NCBI RefSeq assembly: GCF_026239695.1
Contig: NZ_JAPIVS010000001.1
Location: forward strand, 868,001-932,000
From: Pedobacter sp. MC2016-15
GTDB lineage: Bacteria; Bacteroidota; Bacteroidia; Sphingobacteriales; Sphingobacteriaceae
DNA: 64,000 nt
Direction of reading: 5' to 3'
Positions 12,616 through 25,226 of this stretch are shown here, piece after piece. A program made the translations under genes and the position numbers. The notes under the pieces are model-generated. The model saw nothing but the letters and a program-made list of their open reading frames with translations, searched no databases and was not told where the DNA came from. Numbering within the stretch: the stretch's first letter is position 1; each line of letters opens with the position of its first letter.

Positions 12616-15600
12616 CTAAAAATTGAGTTTAATTGAGGCCAGAAACTGGCGTGCTGCAGAATGTGCTGCATAATTGATACCTCCTGTTGTGGCAGAGCCC
12701 TGGCCCTGTGCACCACCCGGCATTACGGCTTCAGGATCTGAAGATGAGGCCGTAAAGTTCAAGGGATTTACTGCAGTAATACCTATCGTCAGGTTCTTTA
12801 ATTTGCCGAGGTCCTTTTTGTCGAATGCATAGAGCAAACCAATTGTACGCACCTTGATGAAGTCGCTTTTTTCCACAAACAACTGCGAGTAATTGAGCCA
12901 GTTAGTAGTTTTATTTTTTGCCAGTTCTTCTGCCGGGACACCTTCAGTTGAAGCGCCGTAATTGATACGGAACTGCTTATCCCAGTTAGAAATGTATCCT
13001 CCCTGCTGGTAATCCGCATTCGCAAAAAGCGATAGGTTTTTATACCTTAGGTTTAAGCCCATACTCCCATTTAATGTAGGGATCGTAGAACCGAGGAATG
13101 AAAGCGGTACTGTGCTCTGCAGCGTATTGTCGGCACCAAAAACACCGTAATTACCACTAATATATCCAATTGGATAACCTTCTTTAACCACGATCTGAAC
13201 CGTTCTTGATGTCAGTCCGTTGAGGTTAAATGCAGGCGCACCGCCCGTGCTTACCACTTTGTTATCAATTGTATTGGCAGAAACTCTGACCCTAACTCCC
13301 CATTTTTCATTTTCCACGACCGCTGTGGAGAGCGCAAATTCAAATCCTTTATTGTTGATTTCACCGATATTCTGTACTGAGGTAGCCATACCAGTTGATG
13401 ATGCTGGTGGAACATAGAAAAGCGCATCCTTTGTGGTATTATTGAAGTAGCTGGTAGTAAAAGATATCCTGTCTTTGAAAAGTCCAAGGTCCAGTCCGAT
13501 CTCCTTGGAGTATGTTTTTTCAGGGCCTAAGTTATCATTTCCGGGAAATCCGAAAGTGGCCGACTGCCCATTGTTATAACCTGTGATGGCGATAGTGCGC
13601 TCATTCTGGAATGCCGGTGGGAAATTACCCGAAACACCATAGTTAGCCCTGATCTTTACCGTATTGATAATCTGCTTGCCCAGATTCATGAAAAAGGGCT
13701 CCGAACTCAGTATATAGGAAAATCCTACTTTTGGATAATACTGTATCCCCACAGAATTTCCGAAGGCTGAGTTACCATCGCCTCTGAGACCAAGATCCAG
13801 GAAGTAGCGGTCTTTGAATCCAATGTTTTCCTGGAAAAACACCCCGTAATTGGCCACTTCAGCATAATACTCTGAACTCGTTGTCGTCGCTGCCTGCCCA
13901 ACGGTAAGTGCTCCATCCCTGATATCCTGTCCGATGTATGAAATCTGCCTGTCTTCAGTACGGAAGAGCTGACCACCAAAAGTAGTTAAGAAGGAAAAGT
14001 CGTCCACTTTATATTCATACTGAGCTGTTAAATCAAAGGTTAAGCCCAGGTAATTACGTTCGTAATTGGATAGTGAACCTGCAGCGCTAGAGCGGATCAG
14101 CCTGTTAAAAGCGTTGCTTACCACCGACTGCTCTCTCTGCAAACGGTAATCGATACCTGCAGTACCTTTGATCAGTAAGTTCTTCACCGGCTGATACCTG
14201 AAAGCCTGGGAGGTTTGAAAGCGGTTTGTTCTGGAAGTATTATTCTGCAGCCGCTCTGCAGAATCTACAAAGAGTTTCATCCTTGCAAACTCTGCTTCCG
14301 ATACCGCATTAAGGTCTGGGTTGAAGCCGCCGCCAATCACTTTGGATGCTCCGTCTTCGGCAAACCACAATCCGGAATAACCACCAGAGTTTCCATTTCT
14401 AACTCTTCTCAGGTTTTGGTTATTGTACGAAAAGGTACTTTCATAGTTGAGGTCTTTTGCAATTTTAGCATTTAAGCCTACCCTGAAATCTATTTTCTCC
14501 TGCTCATTCTGGTCGTGTATTAACACCCCGGTAGCTTTATTATATGAACCGGCAGCGCTGTAACCCAAATCTGATGTACCGCCATTTACGCCAAGACTGT
14601 ATCTGGTGAACAATCCGTTCTGATAGAGGAGTTCCTTTGTTTTCTTGAAATACTGAAAATCAGTTGTTGGGGTTTCCAGACCGACATCAACCCCGGCATT
14701 GAATGAGGCTTCGCCGGAACCTCTTTTCTTTGTAAAAATCTGCAATACCCCATTGGCGGCATCAGATCCGTATAAAGTGGTAGCGGCACCACCGCTGATA
14801 AACTCGATCTTCTCAATATTATCTACCGGAATATCCGAAAGTGAACTTGTTGAGGCTCCCTGAGAAATGCCTCCCGACAGGTTCATGCCTATTGAGGGAG
14901 CAGTATTGAGGTTATCTACCCTTACTCCATCGATATATACAATTGGTGTAGAGTTTGAAAATGCGGAATTAAAACCGCGGGTTTGAATGATTGAAGTTGC
15001 GCCTGCCTGACCACCTGAAAGTTTGATCTGTGCATTGGGGATTTGCGACTGAATCAGCTGATCAATCCTGTTCACAGGGATATCACGAATCTGCTTCTCG
15101 GAGATCGTTGTCACATTGGTGGACAAACGTCTTTTGCTTACGTTCAGTCCCTGACCAGTTACTACTACCTCGTTGAGTCCCAGTAAGTCCTGGTCCAGTT
15201 CAATAGTAATCAGCTGCCCCTGACTCCCTGCGCTTACAGGAATTTCCTGCGTTCTGTAACCTACGTAACTGATCACCATTACCGGTTGTTCAAACTCTGA
15301 GGGAACGGTGATTCTGAATTTACCACTGATGTCTGTCTGGGCGGAGATCATGCTGCCCTTAATCCGGATGCTTACACCGGGAAGCGTTTCCTTATTGGCT
15401 TTATCCTTAACCAATCCGCTGATGCTTAGCGGGACGACAGCCTTCTCCACTTTCTGCCTAAGGGGAGCTTCTTTAAAGGTTTCAATCAGGATATATTTAT
15501 CACTAAGCTGCCTGATCTTCACATGATCATCTTTCATTAGCTTTTGCAGCACTTCGAAGACTGATTGTTCCCTGGCTGAAAAAGTAAGGGTTTTGCTCAC

Positions 15601-15873
15601 ATCAACATCGTTGTTTTTATAGCCTATCACAAAGGAGCTTTGTTTTTCGATGGTGTTAAAGATCTGCCTGAGGCTGACGTTCTTCGAGGTAAATGAGATT
15701 TTCACTTCCTTCATGGACTGGCCGGATGTTCCTGCCGCATGCAGCAGGATATTGGAAAATAATAAAAGTGCTATTGTTAATTTCATTTTTAAATGAATAA
15801 GCGACCATAGAGGGCGTTTGTAACCCTTATAAAAAAATTGCATATTTGATATGTTTTTGATGTTTTTAGACAA
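12616..15873 (-). CDS. SusC/RagA TonB-linked outer-membrane transporter with STN domain
   Basis: The 1085-residue protein is a TonB-dependent SusC-family transporter. In order it has a signal peptide, an STN (secretin and TonB N-terminal) domain (about residues 60-115, KNVSLRQIFNTIEKQSSFVI), a carboxypeptidase-regulatory-like domain (about 145-230), a TonB-box-like segment LNEVVVTGQGLNVSKR, a plug with FNSAFSNSTPIVYIDGVRV and a large barrel. The STN domain marks transporters that signal to a FecR anti-sigma factor, and those genes lie directly upstream. The ATG at 15873 gives a long N-terminus. Met codons at residue 11 or in LKMKLTIALL could be the true start. Confidence 0.92.
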   Translation of the reverse strand: MSKNIKNISNMQFFYKGYKRPLWSLIHLKMKLTIALLLFSNILLHAAGTSGQSMKEVKISFTSKNVSLRQIFNTIEKQSSFVIGYKNNDVDVSKTLTFSAREQSVFEVLQKLMKDDHVKIRQLSDKYILIETFKEAPLRQKVEKAVVPLSISGLVKDKANKETLPGVSIRIKGSMISAQTDISGKFRITVPSEFEQPVMVISYVGYRTQEIPVSAGSQGQLITIELDQDLLGLNEVVVTGQGLNVSKRRLSTNVTTISEKQIRDIPVNRIDQLIQSQIPNAQIKLSGGQAGATSIIQTRGFNSAFSNSTPIVYIDGVRVDNLNTAPSIGMNLSGGISQGASTSSLSDIPVDNIEKIEFISGGAATTLYGSDAANGVLQIFTKKRGSGEASFNAGVDVGLETPTTDFQYFKKTKELLYQNGLFTRYSLGVNGGTSDLGYSAAGSYNKATGVLIHDQNEQEKIDFRVGLNAKIAKDLNYESTFSYNNQNLRRVRNGNSGGYSGLWFAEDGASKVIGGGFNPDLNAVSEAEFARMKLFVDSAERLQNNTSRTNRFQTSQAFRYQPVKNLLIKGTAGIDYRLQREQSVVSNAFNRLIRSSAAGSLSNYERNYLGLTFDLTAQYEYKVDDFSFLTTFGGQLFRTEDRQISYIGQDIRDGALTVGQAATTTSSEYYAEVANYGVFFQENIGFKDRYFLDLGLRGDGNSAFGNSVGIQYYPKVGFSYILSSEPFFMNLGKQIINTVKIRANYGVSGNFPPAFQNERTIAITGYNNGQSATFGFPGNDNLGPEKTYSKEIGLDLGLFKDRISFTTSYFNNTTKDALFYVPPASSTGMATSVQNIGEINNKGFEFALSTAVVENEKWGVRVRVSANTIDNKVVSTGGAPAFNLNGLTSRTVQIVVKEGYPIGYISGNYGVFGADNTLQSTVPLSFLGSTIPTLNGSMGLNLRYKNLSLFANADYQQGGYISNWDKQFRINYGASTEGVPAEELAKNKTTNWLNYSQLFVEKSDFIKVRTIGLLYAFDKKDLGKLKNLTIGITAVNPLNFTASSSDPEAVMPGGAQGQGSATTGGINYAAHSAARQFLASIKLNF

Positions 15874-15885
15874 TTCGTTAGAAAT

Positions 15886-15940
15886 AAGAAAGCTGCTACA
15901 GCTTTCTTTTAAGCCGGAAATGTTGACGCATTTCCGGCTT
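15886..15940 (-). terminator. Tandem hairpins between fecR and susC
   Basis: Two adjacent hairpins lie here. One pairs AAGCCGGAAATG (15911-15922) with CATTTCCGGCTT (15929-15940), a perfect 12-base-pair stem. The other pairs AAGAAAGCTG (15886-15895) with CAGCTTTCTT (15899-15908). Read leftward they follow fecR and precede susC, so they may stop or attenuate transcription and separate regulator from transporter expression. Confidence 0.55.
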
Positions 15941-15957
15941 TTTTATGATACAGCGGG

Positions 15958-16947
15958 TTAGTTATTCTTCATAATATAAATCTGGTTTTGCTGATGAGAA
16001 AATCTGTATTTTGTTAACTGCGATAGAATTTGAGTAGCGGCATCTATACTTTCGTCACCTAATTTGATGGTGTATCTGTCGGACCTGCCTAAGCCCGGCT
16101 CTATGTTGGTTTTTATATGATAATAGCGGCTCAACAGATGGGCGATGTCTTCAACAGATGCATTATCGATATACAATTCATTATTAGTCCATGAATTATA
16201 CAAACTGGCCTCTCCGGTTTTGATTTCCATCGCCTTACTCTTATTGTTATAAATCAGTACCTGGTTTTTAACCATCCCGGCGGACAGCAGAGTTTCTTTC
16301 TCGCCTTCACGTATACTTGCAACTCTGACTTTCCCGCTGCTAACGGCGATTTTAAGTTCTTCGAGATCGGGATAGGAACTGATGTTGAAGGAGGTGCCCA
16401 GAACAGTGGTATTCAGATCCTCAGACCGAATGATAAATGGCCTGGTTGTATCTTTAGCTATTTTGAAAAAACCTTCTCCGGTAATTTTTATCCTGCGGTC
16501 CCTGAGGTTAAAATCTTCGGCAATACTCAGGCTGCTTCCGCTATTCAGCATAATTACTGATCCATCGGACAGCCTTACATTCTTTCTGGTATCACCAGTG
16601 CTCACCAGTAATTTGTAACCCGAAGATTTTTTAAGGCTGGAAGGTTTCAGGCTAAAGTAGGCAGCGATGCCAATAAGCACTAACGTAGCGGCATATTTTA
16701 AACCCGGATTTAGAAACCAGTGTTTAGAGGACTCATCGGAGGGAGTCGCCAGCGGTTCCTCAAGAATAACCTGTGTAATCCTCAGTTTAGCCTTCAACTC
16801 GCGATGCGGGTTTGCTTCCGCCATATCCTGGTCAAGGGCATCGTACCATGCATTGATAGCCTTATATTCCTGAGGCTTTAAGTCTTTACTATTAAACTTA
16901 CGCAGCATTTTCTTTAGCTCCGTCGAACTTCTTTGTTTTTCTGACAT
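15958..16947 (-). CDS. FecR family anti-sigma factor
   Basis: FecR proteins sit in the inner membrane, hold the ECF sigma factor inactive and release it when the loaded SusC signals through its STN domain. The 329-residue protein has a cytoplasmic N-terminus (residues 1-90), one membrane helix (YAATLVLIGIAAYF, about 90-110), a FecR domain with TRKNVRLSDGSVIMLNSGS and a C-terminal DUF4974-like domain (NASVEDIAHLLSRYYHIK). It starts about 70 bases after the sigma factor stop. Order and strand support a sigma/anti-sigma/SusCD regulatory unit. Confidence 0.93.
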   Translation of the reverse strand: MSEKQRSSTELKKMLRKFNSKDLKPQEYKAINAWYDALDQDMAEANPHRELKAKLRITQVILEEPLATPSDESSKHWFLNPGLKYAATLVLIGIAAYFSLKPSSLKKSSGYKLLVSTGDTRKNVRLSDGSVIMLNSGSSLSIAEDFNLRDRRIKITGEGFFKIAKDTTRPFIIRSEDLNTTVLGTSFNISSYPDLEELKIAVSSGKVRVASIREGEKETLLSAGMVKNQVLIYNNKSKAMEIKTGEASLYNSWTNNELYIDNASVEDIAHLLSRYYHIKTNIEPGLGRSDRYTIKLGDESIDAATQILSQLTKYRFSHQQNQIYIMKNN

Positions 16948-17016
16948 CTACTTATACTATCTGCAATAGGGGCTGCAAGTACTTTAAGTAAATGTTATAA
17001 AAACAACAAGGGTATG

Positions 17017-17619
17017 TTAACCTCGCAAGGCTGCAAGTATCAGGATGAGGGTGACGGTAACATCAGAATTATATTCGTCCACTTTGATTTTAAGTTTACT
17101 CAATACGGTGGAGATATTGTTTTTTACGGTCTGCTCGGATAGCTGTAGCTGACTGGCAATTTCTTTGATGCTGAGGTGTTCTTCCCTGCTCATGACATAA
17201 GGTTGCCTTAACCTCGCAGGAAGGCTTGCAATTTCGGCGCTGATCATCTCTTTGAGTTCATGAAGTAATACCTCTTCATCAGAATAGTCCGATGATGCAT
17301 ACTCCAGAACTGTCGTAAGGGCATTTTCATAGGGAATGGTTGTTTCGGGCCTGCCGAAATAGTCTATTGCACAATACTTCGCAGCAGTAAACAGATAAGG
17401 GCTCAGTGATTCTTCCTGATTGCAGGTGATGTTATCTTTATTTTTCCAGAACCCAATAAAAATTTCCTGTACAATATCTTCAGCTTCATCTTCATTGCGG
17501 ATCCGTGCAAAGAGATGTTTATACAGCTTCCCCCAATACCTATCGACTAAGACCGTGAAAGCAAGATGATTTCCGGTTTTAATTAAATCCAGCAAGCCAT
17601 CGTCCGAGAGTAGTTTCAT
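17017..17619 (-). CDS. ECF RNA polymerase sigma-70 factor
   Basis: The 200-residue protein has region 2 (YKHLFARIRNEDEAEDIVQE, then IFIGFWKN) and region 4 (LPARLRQPYVMSREEHLSIK with a helix-turn-helix around EIASQLQLSEQTVKN). This is the arrangement of Bacteroidota ECF sigma factors paired with FecR. It probably drives the downstream SusCD genes when released by FecR. A TAAATTTG -7-like element ends four bases upstream of the ATG, so the mRNA may be nearly leaderless. Confidence 0.94.
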   Translation of the reverse strand: MKLLSDDGLLDLIKTGNHLAFTVLVDRYWGKLYKHLFARIRNEDEAEDIVQEIFIGFWKNKDNITCNQEESLSPYLFTAAKYCAIDYFGRPETTIPYENALTTVLEYASSDYSDEEVLLHELKEMISAEIASLPARLRQPYVMSREEHLSIKEIASQLQLSEQTVKNNISTVLSKLKIKVDEYNSDVTVTLILILAALRG

Positions 17620-20691: not shown

Positions 20692-21008
20692 CAATACATT
20701 CTGTCTTTCAGTAACAGATTTATGTTGTGCCTGCCCTTCGCGGATCACCCACTCACAGGACTTTTTTTCTCTTTGAATTTGTTGTTACCAATTTAAGGAA
20801 TTGATTCCTCAACTTCATATATTTTTTATTAACATTTCTGTATAAATGTGGAATAGTAAAATATTGATACATATGGTGCACAAGTTGTAAATAAATTAGC
20901 TCAATTTAAATTAATTGAAGACCGTATACTGCTCGTAGAGAGATCCCCCTGTGTTCACCCTAAGTTCTGAGAGTGCTTTGTAAACCCCTATCATAAATAT
21001 AGCACAGT

Positions 21009-21069
21009 CATACCCCGGACTTACTATTTCCTTACCTTTTAGGTAACGCTGAGGTAAAGCCGGGGTATG
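21009..21069. repeat. Imperfect 61-base palindromic element
   Basis: CATACCCCGG (21009-21018) and CCGGGGTATG (21060-21069) form perfect outer arms. TTACCT/AGGTAA (21032-21046) forms a perfect centre with a three-base loop. Both are centred on 21039, with some further pairs between them. A run of GGTA-containing short units continues to about 21093. It resembles an intergenic REP-like or structured RNA element. Confidence 0.5.
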
Positions 21070-21235
21070 TTCGAGGTATAGCTGTGGTATGGCTAAAGGG
21101 ATCACTATAAGAACACTCGGGGATGACAGTAGAACCTCTCTACGAATAAGATATGAAGAGTTTGTAGTAGTATACCGGGTTTATATATCACCAGGATTAT
21201 TAAATTAGGGAAAAGATTAAAAATGAACAAGTATA

Positions 21236-22705
21236 TTATAATCTTTTAATCTTAAAATAATACTTCAGCGCCAAAATCAATCCCGTCAAACTTACCAAAG
21301 TACCTCCGCTAAGCAGCAAGATCACGAAGATATCCCATGCTGGCCGCGATTGCTGGAAATTAAAGAAATCCAGACTGTGGAGCCCGTGATAAAGCCATCG
21401 GCTCAACCTGGACGAAGCATTGTTTTTCAGCACGATTTCTCCCGTAGACAAATCTGCATAATACCAGGTTTGGTCCTCATCTGCATATTTAACTCTAAGT
21501 ACAGGTAAAGGTTTATCCTTGTGTTTGGAATAGTAATAATGATCCTCCTGATCAAGCATGCTGATCTCAGCAGGAGAACCTAAAGGATGGACCGAGCGTA
21601 TACCGCGAAGGACAAGTTCCTGAGGAAAACTCCTGAAAGGTAAGCCCCTGACAGCGGTATCTGCAATGGCCATCCTCGTCTTTCCTGAACCATCAGCAGC
21701 AATGTAATAGCTCCGGCCCTGAAAACGTTTCAGTTCAATCTCTACAGGAGAAAAAGTTTGAGCATTAAAAAGCCCCCCGGGAGCCTTCGTGAATGATTTA
21801 ACAACCAGATTCCCCTGTTGTAAACGCCGGTTTTCCTGATCGGTGATATCCGCCTCCGGGCTCCATCCAAAAGGAGACATCGTCAACAAGCCACTAAATA
21901 CCCAGGTGAAAGTAAAAAGCCCAAAGATAAAACCCGTATAATGATGCCATCTGAACCACCGGTGACGATACGGACTGGTGTAAACGCCGGATTTTTTCTT
22001 TACTCTGATCAATCCTGCAGCAATCCCTGCAATACTGGCAACGATCCCCAACGAAGAAAATAGTATCACCACTACACGCCACAGGGCTCTCCGAAGGATC
22101 AGCTCCCTGGGATAAATCCAGTGGATGATCGGCCCGCACCATGCCATGACACGCTGGGAGAATGTATGAACCTGCAGGATTTCCCCGGTTTTCGAAGAGA
22201 TGTAAATCACCGTTTCGGCAGGGTCATCCATCCTGACCCGGTATATAGGCATATGGATCAGAAAAGCCTTGCGGGGAATCCACTGATCAAGTTCTTCAAT
22301 CTTCTCCAGCAGCAAAGGCGAGGAGCTGAATGACATGAACTCCTTCGCGACAGCAAGCGCTGTACCAGCAGAAAGTTGCCCCACAGGTTTGCCATTACCT
22401 GCATAAAAAGCATACCGCTCCCCCTGCTGGTTTTCCAGTCTGAGCACTGGCCGGTTCAACAGCATATCTATACGGATGTGCTTCCAGGAGCTATCCTGCG
22501 AAAGAAGTTTGCTCAAAGCTGAAGGAGGAAGTTCAAGAGAATCCAGAAGTAATGGCGACTGATGTGCAAGGCGTTCCTTTTTGCTGTACTGCGGAAAATC
22601 TACGTACATCATCACGAAGCCCGACAAAAACCAGGCAACAAAAAACAGGCACATGATCAATCCAAACCAGCGGTGGATCCTTACAATTTGGTTTTTAAGC
22701 GTCAT
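21236..22705 (-). CDS. PepSY-domain membrane protein (uptake-associated)
   Basis: The 489-residue protein has an N-terminal membrane helix after HRWFGLIMCL, a periplasmic PepSY-like region, a central pair of helices around residues 200-275 with WFRWHHYTGFIFGLFTFTW, another PepSY region and a C-terminal helix (FVILLLSGGTLVSLTGLILA). This is the layout of PepSY-associated TM proteins linked to TonB-dependent iron or cofactor uptake, where conserved His residues may bind heme or act in reduction. It follows the TonB receptor on the same strand, behind a terminator-like hairpin (22721-22747). Confidence 0.85.
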   Translation of the reverse strand: MTLKNQIVRIHRWFGLIMCLFFVAWFLSGFVMMYVDFPQYSKKERLAHQSPLLLDSLELPPSALSKLLSQDSSWKHIRIDMLLNRPVLRLENQQGERYAFYAGNGKPVGQLSAGTALAVAKEFMSFSSSPLLLEKIEELDQWIPRKAFLIHMPIYRVRMDDPAETVIYISSKTGEILQVHTFSQRVMAWCGPIIHWIYPRELILRRALWRVVVILFSSLGIVASIAGIAAGLIRVKKKSGVYTSPYRHRWFRWHHYTGFIFGLFTFTWVFSGLLTMSPFGWSPEADITDQENRRLQQGNLVVKSFTKAPGGLFNAQTFSPVEIELKRFQGRSYYIAADGSGKTRMAIADTAVRGLPFRSFPQELVLRGIRSVHPLGSPAEISMLDQEDHYYYSKHKDKPLPVLRVKYADEDQTWYYADLSTGEIVLKNNASSRLSRWLYHGLHSLDFFNFQQSRPAWDIFVILLLSGGTLVSLTGLILALKYYFKIKRL

Positions 22706-22720
22706 CTCAAAGAAAAAATA

Positions 22721-22747
22721 TGAGGCTGATCAAATGATACAGCCTCA
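22721..22747 (-). terminator. Terminator/attenuator between TonB receptor and PepSY gene
   Basis: On the minus strand TGAGGCTG pairs with CAGCCTCA around an 11-base loop and is followed by TATTTTTTC, a classic rho-independent layout. It lies between the receptor stop (22757) and the PepSY start (22705), so PepSY expression probably depends on partial readthrough. Confidence 0.7.
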
Positions 22748-22756
22748 ATAAAGAAA

Positions 22757-24904
22757 TCAGAATTTATACCTTACCGAAGCCAGATAGTTGGCCGGCTTGC
22801 CCGGATACAGTTGGTTATCATTGATTGCTGAAACAAAGTATTCCCGCTTATTAAATACATTGTTTACGTTCAACCCGATATCAACGTGTTTAAATTGATA
22901 ATGTACCGCAGCATTTATAATTGTATAAGCCGGAAGCTTCACCGCGTTATCATTATCAGCGAAGCTGCTCCCCAGAAAGTTTCCTCCGGCAGAAATCCTG
23001 AAACCATTGTCCTCTATATTCCGGGCGAAACGGTAGGTAGCCCAAAGATTTGCCTGGTGATCCGGCGCATAAAACAGGCGTTTCCCTGCTAAATTCACAG
23101 TGGGCGACTGCACATAGTCTTTGAAGCGTGCATCGGTATAACTATATCCTGCAGTTACAGAAAGATGTGCATTTGGGGTGTAGGTGAGATCTTCTTCGAC
23201 ACCTTTTGAAACTGCTTTTCCAGCCTGCTCAAACACCCCTGCCCCTCTGCCAATGATAATATCAGTTTTTTTGATATGATATATACTTGTCGTTGAACTC
23301 AGCTGCTCATTGATCTGTAGCTTAACACCCAGCTCGCTCATGGCACCCTTTTCAGGCTTCAGTACGATGTCATTTACAGGAAGCTGTCTTCCAGGTTTGA
23401 AATAATTGGCATAGGAACCATAAATACTGAGGGCAGTTACAGGCTCATAGACCAGTCCGAAGCGGTACGTAAACGCATCAGACTCTCTGTCGGTAGCGAC
23501 ACCTTTCACATAATCATTTGCACTATTCAGCTTGTCTGTGCGGTATTCACCTTTAAAATAATCATATCGCAAACCAATCAAAGCCTTCAGCTGCGCCGTA
23601 AAGTTAATCCAGTCCTGTAAATAGAATGAAGTGGAGAATTCGTTCACCCTCCTTTTGGTATCATTGTGTAACACAATCGCCGGCTGCGTTTCTACAGGAT
23701 TGATCAACCCGACAGTGGTCGTTCCAGGCAGGGATGAATCCCGGAACTGTTTCCAGTTGAGGTAATTCAGGGAATTTCCGAAAGTAAAGCGCTGCTCTAT
23801 GCTTCCGGTTTTAAGAACAGAACTCAGCTCCAGCGTATTCTGAAGCGGTTTTAAGATAGTATTGAAATAGAAAAACTCCCTGTTTACAGAATCCTGAGCA
23901 GCATTCAAATAGAGCGTTTCTGAAGAAAAATAATGGTAATTATCTGTTGCATAGGCAATCGTTTCTGTTAGTTTGGTATCAGCTGAAAAGCTGTGGTTAT
24001 ATCTTAACTGGTAATCGGTACGGCTGTATTTCATTCTGTCCTGCGGCGTATTGTACCGCGTTGAAAAGGCAACTCCTGCAGGAATGACACCATTGATGGT
24101 GGGTATTCCCGCATCCAGCTGGTAATCGTCTTTGGCTCCGCCGATCTGGAACTGGAACTGATCTTTGGCTGTAAGCGCATAGTTTAAAGCCAGGTAACCA
24201 TTGGCTTTACTGAAACCTGCCTTTCTCCAACCATCCTGATCCGAAATCCCGAAATCTGCACGGTAGCTCAGTTTATCGGTAATTGCCCCTCCGGCGCCTG
24301 CCGTCATCCTCCTGGTATTGTAACTTCCGTAAGCCAGTGAGAAATCATAGGTCGGGGTAGTGGTAGGCTGTTTCCTGATCACGTTGATGATGCCGCCCAA
24401 TGCGGAATGACCAAAAAGTACTGATGCCGGACCTTTTACCACTTCGATATGATCTACCGAAGCCGTACTGCTCATCGGGGCACTCTGTGAGATATTCTGA
24501 CGCTCATCCCTGAAACCATCCACCAGCATCAGGAAATCAGTAAATCCCCGGATCACAAACTGCTGGAATCCCCCGTACGTTTCCACGGGATTTACGCCAC
24601 TTACATTTTTTAATGCAGATTGGAAATCATCCACCCCCTGGTCGTCCAGTAAAGTTTTCCCGACAGAATTAAAGGTAATGGGAATTTGTTTGAGCGGGGC
24701 ATTGAGCTTAAGAGTTCCCCTGCCCTGTTTGTTTGAATTGATGTTTACTTCATTCAGATCGTATTTTACTGAATCTTTAGGAAGTTTGGTCTTGTTTTCC
24801 TGGGCATCAGCCTGCATGTAAAAAGCAGTACTGAGCACGCTGACCATCACGGTACTGCAGAAATAACTGCCTCTTAGCCGGCAGCCGGTTTTTTGCATTA
24901 GCAT
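22757..24904 (-). CDS. TonB-dependent receptor, siderophore-receptor type, under a cobalamin riboswitch
   Basis: The 715-residue protein has a signal peptide (cleavage near QADAQ), a plug domain (about residues 60-180: GVDDFQSALKNVSGVNP, then FVIRGF and VEVVKGPASVLFG-like IEVVKGPASVLFGHSALGGI) and a 22-strand-type barrel ending in RYKF. By sequence it belongs with ferric-siderophore receptors. Its leader, however, is a cobalamin riboswitch, which suggests that it takes up a cobamide or something coupled to B12 status. The ATG at 24898 is an alternative start. The downstream partner is the PepSY membrane protein. Confidence 0.88.
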   Translation of the reverse strand: MLMQKTGCRLRGSYFCSTVMVSVLSTAFYMQADAQENKTKLPKDSVKYDLNEVNINSNKQGRGTLKLNAPLKQIPITFNSVGKTLLDDQGVDDFQSALKNVSGVNPVETYGGFQQFVIRGFTDFLMLVDGFRDERQNISQSAPMSSTASVDHIEVVKGPASVLFGHSALGGIINVIRKQPTTTPTYDFSLAYGSYNTRRMTAGAGGAITDKLSYRADFGISDQDGWRKAGFSKANGYLALNYALTAKDQFQFQIGGAKDDYQLDAGIPTINGVIPAGVAFSTRYNTPQDRMKYSRTDYQLRYNHSFSADTKLTETIAYATDNYHYFSSETLYLNAAQDSVNREFFYFNTILKPLQNTLELSSVLKTGSIEQRFTFGNSLNYLNWKQFRDSSLPGTTTVGLINPVETQPAIVLHNDTKRRVNEFSTSFYLQDWINFTAQLKALIGLRYDYFKGEYRTDKLNSANDYVKGVATDRESDAFTYRFGLVYEPVTALSIYGSYANYFKPGRQLPVNDIVLKPEKGAMSELGVKLQINEQLSSTTSIYHIKKTDIIIGRGAGVFEQAGKAVSKGVEEDLTYTPNAHLSVTAGYSYTDARFKDYVQSPTVNLAGKRLFYAPDHQANLWATYRFARNIEDNGFRISAGGNFLGSSFADNDNAVKLPAYTIINAAVHYQFKHVDIGLNVNNVFNKREYFVSAINDNQLYPGKPANYLASVRYKF

Positions 24905-24997
24905 TTCTTTTAAAAGATTAAATGAATAAATCGGTTAAAAGCTCTCAAAGGCTAACTTCGCAATGCTTTAAAAGAAATTGGGAAAGAAAAATTGGGG

Positions 24998-25030
24998 TAC
25001 ACCACCGCAGCAGCTGCAGAGCAGGGTGTA
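24998..25030 (-). promoter_or_regulatory. Expression-platform hairpin of the cobalamin riboswitch
   Basis: TACACC and GGTGTA at the two ends (24998-25003, 25025-25030) pair around a GC-rich loop containing GCAGCTGC. A C4 then AATTTTTC run follows on the minus strand. It could be the terminator or ribosome-sequestering part of the switch, lying about 95 bases before the start codon. Confidence 0.4.
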
Positions 25031-25080
25031 AACAAATCAGATCTGACCAATTGCCTCATTTCGCGAAAGCATTGTCAATA

Positions 25081-25192
25081 CGGTAAAGGCAGGTATCTGG
25101 CTAATAACGTTAACGTTACACACAGTTGCGCGACAGCTCGTGATTTGAACACGATTCCCTTTTGATCTGCAGTTAAGCAGAACCTATACCGG
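25081..25192 (-). ncRNA. Cobalamin riboswitch
   Basis: Read on the minus strand, the region contains the conserved cobalamin aptamer pieces in order. They are AAAAGGGAATCGTG-TTCAAATCACGA (the GGGAA-hairpin core), CTGTCGCGCAACTGTG (consensus CTGccCCGCAACTGT) and the B12 box AGCCAGATACCTGCC (25088-25102; consensus AGCCAGGAGACCTGCC). The ends GGTATAGGT and ACCTGCC-TTTACC can form the closing stem. It precedes the TonB receptor at 24904, so B12 should repress that gene. A TAAGTTTG -7-like element at 25227-25234 could drive the leader transcript. The 413-base gap 24905-25317 is otherwise explained by this leader and the opposite promoter. Confidence 0.9.
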
Positions 25193-25226
25193 TTGATGAA
25201 GAAATAATTAAAGAACTATAAGGCGG

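Follow-up and report, generated by a model that had tools for sequence, protein, structure and literature searches.

The window, that is the whole stretch of 64,000 nucleotides analysed from Pedobacter sp. MC2016-15 (contig NZ_JAPIVS010000001.1, positions 868,001 to 932,000), carries on its minus strand a cobalamin riboswitch followed by a gene for a TonB-dependent receptor, a hairpin with a T-tract, and a gene for a PepSY-TM inner-membrane protein. This unit, which recurs behind cobalamin riboswitches in other bacteria, is considered here as a candidate module for acquiring the cobalt needed for vitamin B12 synthesis. Its features are as follows:

25071 to 25202, minus strand: cobalamin riboswitch aptamer (RF00174), 132 nt, 66.3 bits, E 3.7e-14
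24986 to 25030, minus strand: hairpin and T-tract behind the aptamer in the predicted fold, a candidate expression-platform terminator
22757 to 24904, minus strand: TonB-dependent receptor of the siderophore-receptor type by profile matches, 715 amino acids
22713 to 22747, minus strand: intercistronic hairpin (22721 to 22747) and T-tract by folding, a candidate leaky terminator or message-stabilising hairpin
21236 to 22705, minus strand: PepSY-TM inner-membrane protein with a FoxB-like fold, 489 amino acids (PF03929 and structure model)

The riboswitch score lies well over the gathering score of RF00174, which is 31.5 bits, and the PepSY-TM protein scores 43.2 bits with PF03929 (PepSY_TM) against a curated cut-off of 28.8. 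The stem behind the aptamer is less distinct, the folded region around it having a z-score of only -1.26. An earlier note, made from the letters of this DNA, had placed a PepSY-TM gene behind a B12-riboswitch receptor; this is borne out by the profile and riboswitch scores, the receptor being of the siderophore type by profile.

Among 399 sampled genomes of the family the window's own PepSY gene is the only close match, next to seven weak ones of 21-24% identity. The closest unit is that of Pedobacter westerhofensis (PepSY protein 71% and receptor 88% identical), which belongs to the same family, and the family sample thus misses some members. Three PepSY matches at E 1e-15 or better were found in 395 sampled genomes of the class, namely the window genome and genomes designated G470 and G510, and an alignment of the three yielded 218 relatives when run against 84,980 species genomes; the 80 best relatives were examined. 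A cobalamin riboswitch on the same strand heads the receptor–PepSY run in 48 of these 80 loci, which is no unbiased rate, since the loci are the best 80 of 218, were found through two short peptide patterns, and go back to a query alignment of two linked copies and one unlinked; 25 loci are without it, seven (L052, L058, L070, L087, L091, L100, and L110) are not judgeable because a contig end is too near or the receptor is cut, and G470 adds one more linked case. For 18 of the 48 the linkage was established by an Rfam scan of the locus and for the other 30 by whole-genome hits mapped by coordinates; a profile hidden Markov model run on the locus DNA bore out all 30, and an Rfam scan (cmscan) did so for seven of them as well. 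A local scan of the locus DNA found no riboswitch in L058, L099, L100, L106, L112, and L114.

The linked loci belong to Sphingobacteriaceae, Chitinophagaceae, Cytophagaceae, Spirosomataceae, Flavobacteriaceae, Bacteroidaceae, several alphaproteobacterial families, and one myxobacterium (L095), in which the riboswitch immediately precedes the PepSY gene and there is no intervening receptor gene. On the tree of the PepSY proteins the riboswitch label needs at least 10 changes, 8 of them forced by starred branches, and long branches leave the deep nodes unsure; the link has therefore been gained or lost repeatedly. A chance pairing of riboswitch and PepSY gene is ruled out by the recurrence in 48 of 80 relatives. 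The earlier note had proposed a survey for PepSY-TM genes behind cobalamin riboswitches and would have given up its idea had no other pairs turned up; the pair occurs in these 48 relatives and in G470.

The occurrence of the linked unit was compared with that of CbiC, a marker of corrin synthesis, in 78 genomes (all but those of L061 and L081), seven of which are edge-limited, three of these with CbiC. CbiC was found in 32 of 46 linked genomes vs 1 of the 25 unlinked genomes that could be judged (Fisher p 4e-8, without correction for kinship), and its background in the class sample is 6 clear and 2 weak matches in 395 genomes. De novo B12 producers have been put at 0.6% of Bacteroidetes (PMC8123684). 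A cobalamin riboswitch is present in 114 of 151 sampled family genomes but a close PepSY copy in only 1 of 399, so that using B12 is not in itself enough for a genome to have the unit; the linkage follows B12 manufacture, not B12 use. Of the earlier idea that the PepSY-TM protein takes part in cobamide uptake or reduction, the connection with the B12 regulon holds and recurs, while uptake or reduction of cobamides is less supported, as the linkage follows B12 synthesis and, in several lineages, lies next to cobalt chelatases.

The gene neighbourhoods of the relatives point the same way in several lineages. In G470 a single run comprises the riboswitch, a receptor, CbiK (called by Pfam, below the NCBIfam equivalog cut-off), a second receptor, the PepSY gene, cbiHC, cbiET, cbiGF, and cbiJ/D, and a Bacteroides metagenome-assembled genome has the same one-strand order. 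In four Aquimarina loci the unit is flanked by cbiET and cbiHC and has the opposite orientation to them, and in Filomicrobium it stands behind CbiM and CobF; CbiK stands beside the pair in Phocaeicola, and beside it but divergent in Prevotella. CbiA and full-length CobN come after the unit in seven Dyadobacter/Siphonobacter loci, some of which have an intervening gene. With BLAST cut-offs, a cobalt-type gene was found in 13 and a corrin gene in 16 of 49 linked loci, and in 10 and 1, respectively, of 33 others, which include one duplicate (L034 = L066) and thus make up 32 distinct loci; the CobN matches of L062 and L093, which span roughly half of the query sequence, were set aside as evidence.

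It is worth adding that CbiK beside a receptor–PepSY pair was seen in four Bacteroidales loci (L035:12961-13881, L111:6528-7469, L104:6502-7374, and L113:6031-6942), and that those of the CbiK starts that were read show, by eye, a signal-peptide-like stretch, hinting at a periplasmic cobalt-binding step. CbiA and CobN behind the riboswitch unit, in genomes where CbiC and CbiH were not found, were seen in L040:11558-19239, L039, L041, L046, L049, L053, and L074; in the CobN-bearing Dyadobacter/Siphonobacter, cobalt insertion into imported metal-free corrinoids is possible.

Loci without the riboswitch have neighbours of their own. COG0523/CobW-type genes occur in 7 of the 32 distinct unlinked loci, two of which also carry NicO and HupE, and this is again a divalent-metal setting. 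In G510 the PepSY gene stands among FUR, NicO, COG0523/CobW, WD40, and HupE genes, with no riboswitch in the 20 kb examined. A cluster of NicO, CobW, WD40, HupE, receptor, PepSY, and CobW genes, likewise riboswitch-free, was observed in L034:321-11166 (= L066), where a FUR gene is also present, and in L057. The NicO/CobW/HupE clusters are a second metal setting for the PepSY family, seen in some Bacteroidota.

The AlphaFold2 model of the window's PepSY-TM protein, built from a 54-sequence alignment, is confident (predicted local distance difference test, pLDDT, 90.9; predicted template modelling score, pTM, 0.88) and has four long helices, spanning residues 3-34, 206-236, 249-275, and 454-488. 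FoxB (PDB 7abw) was the top match both in Foldseek (E 4.5e-5, probability 1.00, template modelling (TM) scores 0.28/0.35) and in VIA-align (Z 11.4 over 282 residues, root-mean-square deviation (rmsd) 11.2 A), the next VIA-align rows having Z of at most 9.5 and mostly matching a single PepSY-like region. Four histidines stand out in an alignment of 78 sequences, comprising the window, G470, and 76 of the 80 relatives (L071, L093, L101, and L107 were left out of both the count and the tree):

22673 to 22675, minus strand: codon of His11, cytoplasmic side of helix 1, candidate heme ligand; kept in 76 of 78, gaps in the other 2
22121 to 22123, minus strand: codon of His195, periplasmic side, candidate heme ligand; kept in 76 of 78, gaps in the other 2
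21944 to 21946, minus strand: codon of His254, cytoplasmic side of helix 3, candidate heme ligand; kept in 78 of 78
21377 to 21379, minus strand: codon of His443, periplasmic side before helix 4, candidate heme ligand; kept in 78 of 78

Judging from the helix order in the model, His11 and His254 would face the cytoplasm and His195 and His443 the periplasm. The same arrangement of histidines is described for FoxB and CrpH, in which the periplasmic pair is needed for function (PMC13038864), and HiuB of Caulobacter has been modelled similarly (PMC12424826). The several histidine-bearing helices which the earlier note had read from the sequence thus correspond to the four long helices of the model and to the four histidines kept in 76-78 of 78 sequences.

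By profile the receptor is a member of the siderophore-receptor subfamily TIGR01783 (243.8 bits vs a cut-off of 223.5), and the solved structures most closely related to it are chains labelled CntO, FoxA, and FhuA. With the B12-receptor equivalog TIGR01779 it scores 60.7 bits vs a cut-off of 599.7, a shortfall that speaks against its identification as BtuB. Since the receptor of the second riboswitch operon of the genome (see below) is likewise under that cut-off, at 132.2 bits, the TIGR01779 test may be too strict for this phylum.

The receptor and PepSY genes of the window are separated by 51 bp, and the stem in this gap has a folding energy of -16.4 kcal/mol and a z-score of -3.30, with 1 of 200 shuffles as good (z -3.49 with another cut), and a T-tract behind it. 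The terminator-like stem of the earlier note is thereby confirmed as a structure, though a consensus terminator scan does not list it. A stable stem (z < -2) is present in the gap of 20 of 22 riboswitch-linked Bacteroidota loci in which the receptor–PepSY gap is at least 49 nt, the two falling short being L053 (-0.39) and L064 (-1.77). In P. westerhofensis the gap stem has a z-score of -2.40 vs -3.49 in the window and is made of different letters; clear T-rich stretches at the gap stem were seen in the window, L036, L039, L041, L061, and L074. Four loci with gaps of 33-40 nt have no stable stem there, and in other loci the gaps are shorter still or the genes overlap, leaving no room for one; the hairpin is therefore not essential, and it is a recurrent but dispensable element. 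Both leaky termination and message stabilisation fit it.

The unit is flanked by a DUF3072 gene downstream and by a divergent DUF4153 gene upstream of the riboswitch. The genome of Pedobacter sp. MC2016-15 (5.14 Mb, 16 contigs) has two cobalamin riboswitches. The second stands at the head of an operon that codes for a periplasmic binding protein, a FecCD/BtuC-type permease, an ATP-binding cassette (ABC) ATPase, a TonB receptor, PduO, CobU, and CobS; CbiB and CobQ adjoin this operon, and from the gene order we read BtuF, BtuD, and BtuB among its products. A corrin cluster on contig 14 comprises, by profile, CbiL, a CbiH/CbiC fusion, CbiG/F, CbiJ, CbiD, and CbiX, to which, in our reading, CbiET and CobA should be added, and also a small membrane protein with an HSFEPDH motif, reminiscent of nickel/cobalt permeases and matching no Pfam family. 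Given the corrin cluster and the import operon behind the second riboswitch, the organism probably makes B12, and hence needs cobalt, and has a separate candidate set for B12 import. A profile search of the genome gave seven further PepSY_TM matches, two of them at one gene, and none of the six genes concerned is located at either cobalamin riboswitch.

Two other parts of the window deserve mention. Just downstream of the PepSY gene, at 20919-21182, lies an imperfect hairpin of great length and stability (z -4.74, -94.9 kcal/mol over the 301 nt folded, none of 100 shuffles doing as well), uncovered by any open reading frame of at least 80 amino acids or by any Rfam match at gathering score. 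It may be a structured RNA or what is left of a degraded mobile element. Outside the unit, positions 12616-17619 contain genes named by eye as those for a SusC-like TonB protein, a FecR-like protein (15958-16947), and an ECF-sigma-like (extracytoplasmic function) protein (17017-17619).

The riboswitch linkage with its recurrence, the association with corrin and chelatase genes, the FoxB-like fold, the conserved histidines, and the recurrent hairpin all have direct support, and on balance we lean towards regarding the unit as a module for acquiring cobalt, controlled by the B12 riboswitch and similar in build to the ferrioxamine pair FoxA/FoxB, its substrate and redox activity being predicted. 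At low cobalamin the riboswitch would permit expression, as expected from the known behaviour of its class, and the TonB receptor would import cobalt in chelated form, possibly bound as Co(III) to a siderophore or complexed with a carboxylate. Siderophores bind Co(III), and Co(III) chelates are inert and exchange very slowly, which provides the reason for a reduction step. Conservation and fold suggest that the PepSY-TM protein holds two bis-histidine hemes across the inner membrane, with His11/His254 and His195/His443 as ligands; on chemical grounds these hemes could pass electrons to the periplasmic chelate, turning inert Co(III) into labile Co(II). Co(II) would then enter the cytoplasm via some cobalt transporter and, to judge from the gene neighbours, be inserted by CbiX, CbiK, or CobN, while the hairpin behind the receptor gene may lower the yield of the reductase or stabilise the receptor message. 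That the PepSY-TM proteins in question form a dedicated B12-riboswitch-controlled family of heme-bearing reductases which free cobalt from imported Co(III) chelates, with an outer-membrane cobalt receptor of their own, and so supply a periplasmic step that has been lacking in the picture of how Gram-negative bacteria obtain cobalt for making B12, is a more tentative proposition, for which we see not quite an even chance.

Pairs of a receptor and a PepSY protein are known for iron (FoxA/FoxB, HiuAB, and XusA/XusC) and for copper (CrtA/CrpH) (PMC13038864, PMC12424826, PMC13142918). In FoxA/FoxB of Pseudomonas aeruginosa a ferrioxamine receptor is likewise paired with a heme-bearing PepSY-TM reductase (PMC13038864). 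The window unit resembles it in having FoxB as the top fold match, in the histidines on both membrane faces, and in a siderophore-subfamily receptor, a likeness of overall arrangement; it differs in standing under a cobalamin riboswitch and being tied to B12 synthesis, and the protein has 489 amino acids vs 365 in the FoxB chain, with 11-14% identity in the fold alignments. XusABC of Bacteroides thetaiotaomicron shares the combination of a receptor and a PepSY inner-membrane protein in Bacteroidota but, unlike the window unit, serves iron xenosiderophores and has a surface lipoprotein, XusB (PMC13142918); no lipoprotein gene lies between the receptor and PepSY genes of the window, whose neighbours are the two DUF genes named above, so that the unit lacks this feature of XusABC-type systems. 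CrtA/CrpH, a copper receptor and a PepSY-TM protein of Bordetella pertussis, likewise ties such a protein to a non-iron metal, and the periplasmic-side pair H200/H444 of CrpH, needed for its function, has its counterpart here in His195/His443 (PMC13038864). It differs in its control by a copper-responsive upstream open reading frame and in its link to respiratory oxidases, not B12.

A B12 riboswitch before an inferred cobalt receptor is also found in a predicted Novosphingobium unit consisting of the riboswitch, a TonB receptor, NiCoT, and CobW, and the available part of its description names no PepSY partner for predicted cobalt receptors of this type (PMC7689651). According to the same source, a review of 2021, no cobalt-specific outer-membrane receptor was confirmed at that time (PMC7689651). 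The Cbt families (CbtAB to CbtX) are cited as predicted cobalt transporters (PMC2667541). A literature search, whose hits included papers on a zinc regulon and on a Leptospira genome, found none tying PepSY-TM proteins to the B12 regulon or to cobalt supply, subscription papers being mostly outside its reach, so that an earlier description is possible, and a search on cobalt siderophores found nothing.

The chief alternative to cobalt acquisition, which we consider rather unlikely, is that the receptor imports a corrinoid, perhaps incomplete or unusual, whose Co(III) is reduced in the periplasm by the PepSY-TM protein as an aid to its release or handling. Riboswitch control is typical of corrinoid import, and salvage of incomplete corrinoids would fit the Dyadobacter/Siphonobacter genomes that have the unit without CbiC and CbiH, 7 of 13 of which have CbiA, CobN, and a BtuB-like receptor nearby. 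The separate riboswitch operon, however, already holds a binding protein, a BtuC-type permease, an ATPase, a receptor, PduO, CobU, and CobS; riboswitch-bearing kin are mostly without a close copy of the PepSY gene (the 1 of 399 and 114 of 151 family genomes given above), the linkage follows CbiC, and the receptor is of the siderophore type.

It is improbable, in our estimation, that the unit is an ordinary ferric-siderophore pair similar to FoxA/FoxB or XusA/XusC which came by chance under a B12 riboswitch, even though its receptor falls into TIGR01783, FoxB is the closest fold, and the iron system XusABC of Bacteroides likewise combines a receptor and a PepSY reductase (PMC13142918). Linkage to the riboswitch is seen time and again, in several broad groups and in the company of corrin genes, and the six paralogous PepSY genes of the genome are at neither riboswitch. 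Moreover, iron receptor/PepSY pairs are expected under Fur. An instance of Fur control is hiuABC (PMC12424826). Finally, the family might act on metal chelates generally, with the riboswitch branch sharing machinery for the handling of zinc, nickel, or copper; some riboswitch-free loci do hold COG0523 GTPases, NicO, HupE, and a FUR-family gene, and CrpH, of another PepSY-TM branch, supports copper oxidases (PMC13038864). Feedback by B12 on the uptake of zinc, nickel, or copper would have no evident use, though, and the riboswitch-linked copies, where such neighbours exist, sit with cobalt chelatases and corrin genes, which makes this account distinctly improbable.

Several observations weigh against the cobalt reading itself. 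Out of the six class genomes with a clear CbiC, four (G430, G503, G642, and G662) have no PepSY match at E 1e-15, the other two, the window genome and G470, carrying the protein; B12 makers can therefore do without the unit, which is one way to supply B12 synthesis among others, and the statement that all producers have it is ruled out. Conversely, G510 has a relative without CbiC or riboswitch, L112 has CbiC and a PepSY protein without riboswitch linkage, and CbiC is missing from 14 of the 46 linked genomes. Thirteen of these are Dyadobacter/Siphonobacter, in none of which the CbiH profile exceeds its cut-off, and since neither CbiC nor CbiH was found, they may not make the corrin ring; CobN was not seen in 6 of the 13 within the stretch examined (one of the contigs is very short). 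A rumen Prevotella metagenome-assembled genome, in which CbiK stands beside the pair, makes up the fourteen. That only de novo producers have the unit is, on these counts, too strong a statement. Furthermore, the window has no cobalt gene next to the unit, a cobalt-type gene occurs in only the 13 of 49 linked loci mentioned above, within the stretch examined, and the COG0523 and FUR neighbours could mean zinc, a metal without need of reduction. The superposition on FoxB is loose, as its rmsd and TM scores indicate, and a shared fold shows no function; phmmer against PDB sequences gave no relative up to E 1, and the 54-sequence profile retrieved from PDB only two unrelated proteins (E 0.4 and 0.88).

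The conserved riboswitch–receptor–PepSY unit, following B12 manufacture as it does, names a candidate cobalt receptor and a candidate reductase, and it occurs in named, sequenced species, among them P. westerhofensis and members of Rhodopseudomonas and Dyadobacter. If the cobalt reading is true, it would add cobalt to iron and copper as a metal on which PepSY-TM reductases act, and through the riboswitch the finished vitamin would directly control how much of its own metal is brought in.

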